DNA from: Acidobacteriota bacterium
GTDB lineage: Bacteria; Acidobacteriota; Terriglobia; Bryobacterales; UBA6623
NCBI GenBank assembly: GCA_027592785.1
Contig: JAQCLD010000008.1
Span: forward strand, 1 to 64,000
Length of the DNA: 64,000 bases
Direction: 5' to 3'
Each line of letters opens with the position of its first letter. The first letter of the stretch is position 1. The notes under the pieces are model-generated. The model saw only the letters and a program-made list of their open reading frames with translations, made no database searches and was not told where the DNA came from. Positions 1 to 48,435 of the stretch are shown piece by piece. Made by a program: the position numbers and the translations under genes.

Positions 1-198
1 TGGAAGAACCAAGCCTTCGCCGGCGCCCTCGTCTTCCAAGAGATCAAGCGCCTCAAACTCGCCGGCGACACCGTCGAGGAAGAAGAGATCTTCATGAAGG
101 GCTATGGCCGCGTCCGCGACATCAAGACCGGCCCCGAAGGCGCGATCTACATCCTGCTCAACGAACCGGATCAGGTGCTGCGACTAACGCCGCAGTAG
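1..198 (+). CDS. C-terminal fragment of PQQ-dependent sugar dehydrogenase (glucose/sorbosone dehydrogenase-like), truncated by window edge
   Basis: Frame 1 reads WKNQAFAGALVFQEIKRLKL...GYGRVRDIKTGPEGAIYILLNEPDQVLRLTPQ*; typical GSDH C-terminus. Confidence 0.75.
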   Translation, partial: WKNQAFAGALVFQEIKRLKLAGDTVEEEEIFMKGYGRVRDIKTGPEGAIYILLNEPDQVLRLTPQ

Positions 199-221
199 GC
201 GCCGCGACAACCGTGTTGAGG

Positions 222-249
222 GGCCCCTCACTTGCGTTCAGGGTTCGGA
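222..249 (-). repeat. REP family 1 copy (left inverted repeat of RAYT1 unit)
   Basis: ggcccctcacttgcgttcagggttcgga; reverse complement matches 810-837 at 26/28; also overlaps perfect 14-bp palindrome TGAGGGGCCCCTCA at 217-230. Confidence 0.85.
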
Positions 250-831
250 TGGGCCTGCCAACGACAAGTTTCGAGGGCTCTTGCTACGCTGCAGGAGTTG
301 ATCGTTCCTGAAGCGCCAACGCGGCCCGCTGACGGCCCTGCGGCGTATTTCATCACCTTCGTCTGTTATGGCGCATGGCTACATGGCGCCCAAAATGGTT
401 CGGTCGATCGCTACCATAACGTCCCTAACACTTCATTGCTTGGATCAAATCCTCGCCGACTGCGATTTGAGCAAAGGCTCATGCCCGGCGATGCTGTCCA
501 TCTAGACGCCGGCCAGCGAAGCCTCGTCCTCGCAGCGATCGAACAGCACTGCCTCCACCGTCAATGGATTCTCTACGCAGCGCATGTGCGCACGAATCAC
601 GCTCACGCCGCACTCTGGGCGGACGTCGCGCCGGAAAGGGCAATGGTGCAGCTAAAGCTCCGTGCGTCTCGAGCGCTCAACGCCTCTGGCGGTAGCGCCC
701 CACGATGGTGGGCGCGCCACGGCAGCACGCGATACCTCTGGCGCCTCGAGCAGATCCCCGCTGCGGTCGACTATGTCATCAACGGTCAGGGCGAACCGAT
801 GTCGCTTTATCCGAACCCCAAACGCAAGTGA
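232..831 (+). CDS. REP-associated tyrosine transposase (RAYT, Y1/HUH superfamily)
   Basis: YFITFVCYGAWLHG, HVRTNHAHAAL (HUH-type HxH), RWWARHGSTRYLW, AVDYVINGQGEPM (candidate catalytic Tyr); first codon in track is TTG inside the repeat, true start may be further in. Confidence 0.8.
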   Translation: MRSGFGWACQRQVSRALATLQELIVPEAPTRPADGPAAYFITFVCYGAWLHGAQNGSVDRYHNVPNTSLLGSNPRRLRFEQRLMPGDAVHLDAGQRSLVLAAIEQHCLHRQWILYAAHVRTNHAHAALWADVAPERAMVQLKLRASRALNASGGSAPRWWARHGSTRYLWRLEQIPAAVDYVINGQGEPMSLYPNPKRK

Positions 832-837
832 GGGGCC
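810..837 (+). repeat. REP family 1 copy (right inverted repeat of RAYT1 unit)
   Basis: tccgaaccccaaacgcaagtgaggggcc; overlaps RAYT1 stop codon (829-831). Confidence 0.85.
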
Positions 838-849
838 GCAGTGTGTCAG

Positions 850-2205
850 TTACGGTGAAGCGATCGACCCATCATCATTTGTCGGCAACAACATGAACGG
901 CTTCGTTCCCTGGAACGGGTACTTCTTGAAATCTTCTTCGTTTAGTTCAAACCCCAAGCCAGGTTTGTCGTTGAGCGGGTAGTAGCCATCGACCATGCGC
1001 ATGGCCGGGAAGCCCATCCACTCTTCCCACATCTTTTCTTTCTCTTCGGGCTCGACGCTGCTGCAGATTTCTTGCACCAAGAAGTTCGGCATTGCCGCGT
1101 CCACATGCATCGACGCGATAGCGCCGACAGGACCTTCACAGGCATGCGGAGCCATTTGAATGCCCGACGCCTCGGCCATCGCGGCGACCTTCCATAGCGC
1201 GCTGATGCCGCCCACGTGGTTCACGTCCGGCTGCAGGATATCGGCGACCTTCTGCTCGATGATTTCGCGGCAGCCGTAGTGCGTAATCAGCCGTTCGCCC
1301 GTGGCGATGGGCACGGTCGTGCGGTCCGAGACGCGTTTCATCGCCTTGACGTTTTCGGGCGGGCAAACCTCCTCCATGAACATCAGGTTCAGCGACTCGA
1401 CTTCCTTGCAGATCATCGCCGCCACCGTCGGGCCGGCCTTGGCGTGGAAGTCGATAGCGATATCGATCTTGTCGCCCATCTCCTCGCGCAAGATGAACAA
1501 GTGGTCGACAGCTTCTTTGATGCGTTCGTGCGTGTCGAGAAACTCGTAGAAGTCCGGCACGCCCGTCTTGAAAGCAGTGACGCCGTACTGCTCGGCAAGC
1601 TGGCGAATAAAGCGCAACTGCTCACGGAAAGTGGCGTTGGCCGGCATGCGCTCGCGGATACTCCCAGACAGCAGGTGATAGTAGCCGCGCACGCCGCGCT
1701 CGTCGACTGGGCCGCCTAACAACTCATAAACGGGCTTGCCCAGCACCTTGCCGCGAATATCCCACAGCGCTTGGTCGATGCCCGAGATCGCCGAGCCCAG
1801 CACCGGTCCGGCGCGGTAGAAACCGTGGATGTACATCGACTGCCAGTGATGCTCCACCTGCATCGGGTCCTGGCCGATGATCGCGTAGCTCATGTCGCGG
1901 ACAGCTTGCATGGCGGACTCCGCCTTGCCTTCGAGCGTGGCCTCGCCCCAGCCGACGACGCCGGCGTCCGTTTCGATCTTGACGAACACGTAGGGCCGGT
2001 CCCGCGGCACGGACGCGGGACTCACGCCGAAAACCTTCATGTCCGTTACCTTGAGGCGTGGCGCGGAAGGCAACGCCAGGGCGGCGGCCGCCATCGGCGC
2101 ACAGCCGCAGGAGGAAAGCATCTGCAGCGTGCTTTGCGGCGACGCAAACGCGGGCAGCGCGGCCGCGCCGAGCAGGGACGTCTTGAGTAGTTGTCTGCGA
2201 TTCAT
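850..2205 (-). CDS. Enolase superfamily protein (mandelate racemase/muconate lactonizing enzyme, galactonate/mannonate dehydratase-like) with Tat-like leader
   Basis: MNRRQLLKTSLLGAAALPAFA leader; TDAGVVGWGEATLEGK, GIDQALWDIRGK, MFMEEVCPPENV, VPIATGERL, DILQPDVNHVGGIS. Confidence 0.85.
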   Translation of the reverse strand: MNRRQLLKTSLLGAAALPAFASPQSTLQMLSSCGCAPMAAAALALPSAPRLKVTDMKVFGVSPASVPRDRPYVFVKIETDAGVVGWGEATLEGKAESAMQAVRDMSYAIIGQDPMQVEHHWQSMYIHGFYRAGPVLGSAISGIDQALWDIRGKVLGKPVYELLGGPVDERGVRGYYHLLSGSIRERMPANATFREQLRFIRQLAEQYGVTAFKTGVPDFYEFLDTHERIKEAVDHLFILREEMGDKIDIAIDFHAKAGPTVAAMICKEVESLNLMFMEEVCPPENVKAMKRVSDRTTVPIATGERLITHYGCREIIEQKVADILQPDVNHVGGISALWKVAAMAEASGIQMAPHACEGPVGAIASMHVDAAMPNFLVQEICSSVEPEEKEKMWEEWMGFPAMRMVDGYYPLNDKPGLGFELNEEDFKKYPFQGTKPFMLLPTNDDGSIASP

Positions 2206-16507: not shown

Positions 16508-16536
16508 GATCGCTCCCTCACAGTCGCGGCTCAGAA
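16508..16536 (+). repeat. REP family 2 copy A
   Basis: gatcgctccctcacagtcgcggctcagaa. Confidence 0.8.
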
Positions 16537-16826: not shown

Positions 16827-16855
16827 TTCCGAGCCGCGACCGTGAGGGAGCGGTC
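16827..16855 (-). repeat. REP family 2 copy B (inverted)
   Basis: ttccgagccgcgaccgtgagggagcggtc. Confidence 0.85.
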
Positions 16856-16937: not shown

Positions 16938-16966
16938 GACCGCTCCCTCACGGTCGCGGCTCAGAA
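16938..16966 (+). repeat. REP family 2 copy C
   Basis: gaccgctccctcacggtcgcggctcagaa; forms a REPIN-like inverted pair with copy B. Confidence 0.85.
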
Positions 16967-16991: not shown

Positions 16992-17502
16992 TTAGGGGCG
17001 GTCGCGGTCGGGGAAGGCGTCGTAGCAGGCCATGGGCTTGCCTTGGCCGTGAAGGACGTAGGAGACGGCTTGGGCTGACCTGCTCGGGGTTCCAGAGCCA
17101 GCGGGTGGTTCCGTGGCGGGACCAGCGCTTGGTTCGGGACGGGGGCTCGGTGTGCTTGAGCGCCCGCGTGGCGTAGGCCTTGAATGTGGTCATCATGACT
17201 TCGGGCTGCTGCTTGGCGGCGACGACGATGTGCACGTGATTGCTGCGGACGTGGACGGCGTACAGGGGCCAGCTTCTGCAGGTGCAGACCTCTTGCATGG
17301 CGCGAAGAGTTCGCGCACGTGCCTCTGGGTTGAGGCGATAAGGCGGCTCGCTCATCAGGCGGGATTCGGCTCTTGCACGGCGCATGTCCTCGGGAACGTG
17401 TCGCCCTTTGGGCACGTTGTGGTCGCGATCGACGGTAGCTTTGTCCTCGCCGTGTAGACGAGCCCCATAGCAGGAGAACGTGATTAGGTAGGCCAACGGC
17501 AT
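16992..17502 (-). pseudogene. REP-associated tyrosine transposase RAYT2, frameshifted
   Basis: MPLAYLITFSCYGARLHG, HVRSNHVHIVV, RWSRHGTTRWLWNPEQVS then +1 nt in a CCC run (plus-strand ggg 17072-17074); the other frame gives AVSYVLHGQGKPMACYDAFPDRDRP*. Confidence 0.8.
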
Positions 17503-17533
17503 GGCGACCCATGCATTGTAGGTTGGCCGTGAG

Positions 17534-17562
17534 GACCGCTCCCTCACGGTCGCGGCTCGGAA
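17534..17562 (+). repeat. REP family 2 copy D
   Basis: gaccgctccctcacggtcgcggctcggaa, between RAYT2 start and cbiX-like start. Confidence 0.85.
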
Positions 17563-48407: not shown

Positions 48408-48435
48408 TCCGAACCCCAAACGCCAGTGAGGGGCC
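48408..48435 (+). repeat. Solo REP family 1 copy
   Basis: tccgaaccccaaacgccagtgaggggcc; 27/28 match to 810-837, 8 nt after recN stop. Confidence 0.88.

Follow-up and report, generated by a model that had tools for sequence, protein, structure and literature searches.

A putative class-3 REPtron and its eight homologues in an Acidobacteriota genome

Described systems and layout of the unit

TnpA_Y1 class 3 is the least studied Y1/HUH branch and has been proposed to bridge mobile insertion sequences and domesticated REP systems. Its hosts are Planctomycetes, Acidobacteria and Proteobacteria, its proteins measure about 178 aa and carry W[TA] and Y----Q motifs, and its hairpins are atypical and weak, with a 5' foot CnGA; the repeat reaches about 600 copies in Solibacter usitatus, and the class has been said to 'resemble both IS and REPtrons' (Quentin et al. 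2018, PMC6006769). No experimental work on class 3 was found in the literature searched. RAYTs were originally defined as always flanked by inverted REPs (Nunvar 2010, PMC2817692). Additionally, repeats overlapping the ends of tyrosine transposase genes (5'ov/3'ov), REP termini that supply stop codons, and convergent intergenic sites as the typical location of REPs are all on record (Di Nocera 2013, PMC3733652).

The unit described here lies at positions 217-837 of the window, the whole stretch of 64,000 nucleotides that was analysed. Its features, together with a related repeat elsewhere in the window, are as follows.

217-230, no strand: 14-bp palindrome TGAGGGGCCCCTCA that covers the left REP's outer edge, read from the sequence
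222-250, minus strand: left REP, reverse complement ATCCGAACCCTGAACGCAAGTGAGGGGCC, with a CCGA foot and in inverted orientation to the right REP (repeat comparison and genome search)
232-831, plus strand: predicted class-3 TnpA_Y1 (RAYT-like) open reading frame, 199 aa (ORF list, alignment, Pfam and fold)
598-606, plus strand: HUH motif His123-Ala124-His125 (alignment)
772-789, plus strand: Y----Q motif from predicted catalytic Tyr181 to Gln186 (alignment; both invariant in 13 sequences)
809-837, plus strand: right REP ATCCGAACCCCAAACGCAAGTGAGGGGCC, which encodes the final residues and the stop codon (repeat comparison and genome search)
48408-48433, plus strand: solo REP of the REP-A family (genome search)

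An earlier note on this DNA had described a Y1/HUH-type open reading frame between near-perfect inverted repeats, in a gap between two convergent genes, and this layout was borne out. The frame at 232-831 (+) appears in the ORF list of the window with a TTG start, a TGA stop and 199 codons for amino acids. The repeats at 222-250 and 809-837 are inverted and match at 27 of 29 nt (93%), which is the 26/28 originally counted over 28 bp plus one added base. The neighbouring genes converge on the unit, one at 1-198 (+), 18-23 nt away, and an enolase-superfamily gene at 850-2205 (-), 12 nt away. The right repeat does contain the stop codon and the C-terminal residues, as had been claimed, reading ...TAT CCG AAC CCC AAA CGC AAG TGA GGGG... 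across the gene end.

The corresponding claim for the left repeat, that it overlaps both a perfect palindrome and the gene start, held only for the palindrome. This is made up of GGGGCC, from the REP's outer edge, together with mirrored bases, and most other REP copies lack it. TTG 232 is merely the first start in frame, and in the 13-sequence alignment it precedes the conserved region, the relatives aligning from about residue 37 onward; the overlap of the left REP with the gene start is therefore doubtful. The next start is TTG 298, directly abutted by AGGAG, and translation may begin at TTG 232, at TTG 298 or at another codon.

The protein and its class

The Pfam Y1_Tnp match to the protein itself is weak (E 0.035, below the Pfam cut-off); all 13 aligned members match the same family, the best with E 9.2e-9. 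The AlphaFold model of the 199-aa protein has a mean pLDDT of 75, and the top PDB matches in a fold search were 2f4f, structures of IS608 and 4er8, in which TnpA_REP is bound to a REP hairpin. Model and fold search together show the Y1/HUH catalytic fold of IS200/IS605. A profile search of PDB sequences returned nothing useful. The HUH, W-A and Y----Q motifs are conserved in the alignment; here they read N-His123-Ala-His125, with an Ala spacer where Val is usual, Trp160-Ala161 and YVINGQ. His123-Ala-His125, Trp160-Ala, Tyr181 and Gln186 are the predicted catalytic and diagnostic residues.

The motifs, the foot, the size and the host phyla were the basis for assigning the unit to class 3. It shares with that class an HUH-Y1 protein of about 180 aa with Y----Q, W[TA], an NHVH-type motif with a variant spacer and a conserved N-terminal region; a gene placed between weak hairpins with a 5' CnGA foot, which is CCGA at both unit ends; and repeats dispersed in the genome. 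It departs from the class in the Ala rather than Val HUH spacer, in the stop codon within the right REP and in the nine genes, from three lineages, that one genome contains. Classical RAYT/TnpA_REP systems (GTAG REPs, PMC2817692; 4er8) resemble it in having two inverted REPs beside the gene, dispersed REPs and a related fold, but the class-2 foot GT[AG]G is replaced by CCGA, the class-2 Y motif by Y----Q, and the hairpin is weaker. The TnpA elements of IS200/IS605 (IS608, ISDra2) agree with it in Y1/HUH fold and catalytic residues and likewise have subterminal hairpins with a 5' guide tetranucleotide; unlike IS608 and ISDra2, this unit ends in mirror-image REPs of one sequence, has dispersed solo repeats and is not a multi-copy family. 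In the TIRYT genes (PMC3733652), also found in Acidobacteria (Koribacter), a tyrosine transposase gene is likewise accompanied by inverted repeats, which can extend into the gene at the 5' or the 3' side, but these repeats are long TIRs with GGGGWSAS, whereas those here form a hairpin with a CNGA foot.

Judged from these sequence characters, 217-837 is to be classed as an ordinary class-3 REPtron, another member of a described class. The fusion of gene and REP ends is not a new arrangement; it has been described in Acidobacteria and other phyla. The earlier note had considered the fusion unusual and had set it against domesticated genes next to REPs. That view does not stand, since inverted REPs define RAYTs (PMC2817692) and overlaps with gene ends are documented (PMC3733652). 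A REP-like hairpin overlaps the stop codon in 7 of 64 relatives under a permissive pattern, and the REP-stop overlap is therefore recurrent. The simple foot-plus-stem pattern was confined to this count because it proved too permissive (control 19/57).

The comparison drew on 80 named relative loci, mostly from Acidobacteriota (Bryobacterales and others), with further hosts in Legionella, other Gammaproteobacteria, Planctomycetota and Chloroflexota. Where full flanks were available, inverted repeats with a score of at least 17 were found at the gene ends in 32 of 48 relatives, and in none of 48 control windows placed 0.6 or 1.5 kb away. The displaced windows took the place of a first control, drawn from right flanks at other loci, which common REP sequence had contaminated. 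Among the untruncated REP arms, 41 of 49 carry a CNGA foot, its N free, ahead of [AG]CC.

REP copies and nine class-3 genes in one genome

The 26-nt core TCCGAACCCCAAACGCMAGTGAGGGG of the REP-A family has 22 sites at up to three mismatches in the whole genome (4.55 Mb, 203 contigs), and its reversed control has none under the same conditions, so the REP repeats beyond chance. This confirmed the proposal that the REPs form a dispersed family; the end sequence is not confined to the unit and the site at 48408, an outcome that the earlier note had named as counting against its reading. The copy number is elevated, as in class 3, though far below the roughly 600 of Solibacter. Two sites are the unit ends, two lie beside the paralogue on C46, four are in tandem on C36 and five are near kinase genes; about nine dispersed sites are left after these are subtracted. 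The five kinase-upstream copies were not counted as independent insertions because they were copied along with paralogous kinase genes. The REP-A hairpin folds no better than shuffled sequences (z -0.7 and -0.04), whereas those of sister REP families fold strongly (z -3.3 and -3.8). Two other REP families were counted in the genome, at 14 and 15 copies against 0 for the control.

Two local arrangements of REP-A copies were also recorded. On C36:24431-24575 (locus L011, 1450-1610), four REPs are repeated in tandem with a 39-nt period, two variants alternating. Composites of REP-B and REP-A occur at C21:6232-6309, C121:8593-8670, C124:26235-26308, C124:26624-26701 and C183:64498-64839. These composites were considered as mobile dimers and rejected, since they sit ahead of Ser/Thr kinase paralogues and were duplicated along with those genes.

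What is new here is the presence of nine class-3 genes in one genome, most with a repeat family of their own. A protein search of the genome recovered, besides ORF 232-831, eight homologues that are 43-57% identical to it, and seven of the nine genes lie between REP copies, in most cases inverted ones. The REP families have in common a C-N-G-A foot and a stem that opens with [AG]CC, and differ in their stems, which are CCCC/GGGG at unit 217-837, CCGCCA/TGGCGG on C74, CCAGGGGC/GCCCCTGG on C41, and CCGC/GCGG on C22 and at C183:17 kb. The paralogue on C46 has both the closest protein (57% aa) and the closest REP (3 mismatches in 26), which suggests that a gene and its repeat change in step. When placed in a tree with named relatives, the nine genes fall at three places: a group of five (97/89), a group of three (100/99) and a single gene. 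These nine diverged gene-repeat pairs provide material on the joint divergence of a transposase and its target repeat.

Not all of these genes are intact. At least one of the nine is frameshifted, the gene on C182 has lost the first His of its HUH motif in the alignment, and two lack a canonical start near the conserved N-terminus. The latter are on C52 and C133 (L034 and L036), where the conserved frame is open with no ATG, GTG or TTG near that N-terminus; they may be decayed or have an unusual start.

The REPs of the C46 paralogue (L032) are direct, not inverted, and lie within repeats of about 49 bp on either side of the gene. The window itself holds a second class-3 gene at 17074-17505 (-), frameshifted before the Tyr motif, with a separate REP family TCCGAGCCGCGACCGTGAGGGAGCGG of 14 genome sites; REPs around it are at 16510-16535, 16828-16853, 16940-16965 and 17536-17561.

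Mobility of the unit and competing explanations

The family motifs, the fold, the flanking REPs, their foot and the dispersed copies are all observed at this locus or in its genome, and 217-837 is very probably a TnpA_Y1 class-3 REPtron, a gene for a predicted ssDNA Y1/HUH endonuclease set between inverted REPs of its own. By analogy with its family, the protein probably acts on its CCGA-footed REPs through single-strand cleavage and rejoining. As a dimer with an HUH-bound metal and Tyr181, it would recognise the REP as a single-stranded hairpin that carries a 5' CCGA foot, cut beside the hairpin with formation of a 5'-phosphotyrosine link, and then rejoin the strands. We infer from this scheme that cleavage, strand transfer and REP mobilisation are activities of this protein, so that REPs, solo and paired, would be copied or moved through the genome and the whole gene-plus-ends unit would be moved only rarely. 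The right REP, with its in-frame TGA, would simply happen to end the gene, an overlap attributable to tight packing.

Whether gene and ends also travel together was approached through copies and flanks. The unit occurs once in its genome, with paralogues at most 57% identical, and multiple near-identical copies of the kind left by whole-unit transposition in IS200/IS605 were not found there. Relatives of the right-hand gene at 60-68% identity exist in many genomes, and 11 loci were retrieved; the left gene stood beside the orthologue in none of these 11. No empty site can be defined because no retrieved locus holds both flanking genes together. Orthologues of the right-hand gene do occur in relatives without the unit, although next to a different gene on the other side.

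Other genomes lend limited support to unit mobility. In the MAG JAICIH01, two 90%-identical class-3 units (L163/L167) lie on different contigs with unrelated flanks, homology being limited to about 597 bp; such a relative offers material on the question of continued whole-unit movement. Between genomes, many pairs are likewise homologous over the unit alone, with unrelated flanks, and in one pair (L177/L182, 86%) the homology stops about 5-10 bp beyond the REPs. Together with the grouping of five of the nine genes in one lineage, which indicates that the gene multiplied in the past, these pairs are what an autonomous IS200/IS605-like insertion sequence, transposing whole between its REP ends, would be expected to leave. 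Such an element is nonetheless an unlikely account of 217-837. The unit is single here; the homology of L167 begins within the left REP and its gene carries indels; and when one unit was searched in six related genomes, five gave a single full-length match and the sixth one full-length match plus a weak 127-bp fragment. At least 18 matches, mostly solo ends, were present in three of the six. Furthermore, according to PMC8266576 there is no evidence that tnpA_REP is mobile. Tentative, and less likely than not, is the idea that class-3 units are true IS-REPtron intermediates in which, unlike in classical tnpA_REP, gene and REP ends occasionally transpose as one unit and diverged gene-repeat sets, such as the nine pairs here, accumulate in one genome. 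For the class-3 REPtron at 217-837 itself, movement of the whole unit is possible as a rare event.

A host-domesticated gene, with REPs serving only to terminate transcription or stabilise the mRNA of the convergent genes and with no mobilisation of repeats, would suit the single copy and the convergent intergenic location typical of REPs (PMC3733652). This is improbable given that the catalytic residues are kept, that REPs diverge in step with their cognate gene and that the same REP is present in many unrelated contexts.

Spread as a passenger in another transposon, for which a class-3 unit carried by a TIR element in another genome (G034) gives a precedent, is very improbable for 217-837, where no such TIRs or target duplications were seen on inspection and where the unit, 12-23 nt from two genes, leaves no room for outer ends. 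In G034, the class-3 unit and its REPs are amplified within an element bounded by TIRs GGGYGTGCGACA...TGTCGCACACCC and by apparent target duplications of 9 bp. Its multi-copy fragments were rejected as signs of self-mobility, the copies lying within the TIR element with its apparent target duplications, and this amplification was left out of the mobility evidence as hitch-hiking. The G034 element is MITE-like (loci L049, L054-L060 and L214-L222), with internally deleted copies at several sites.
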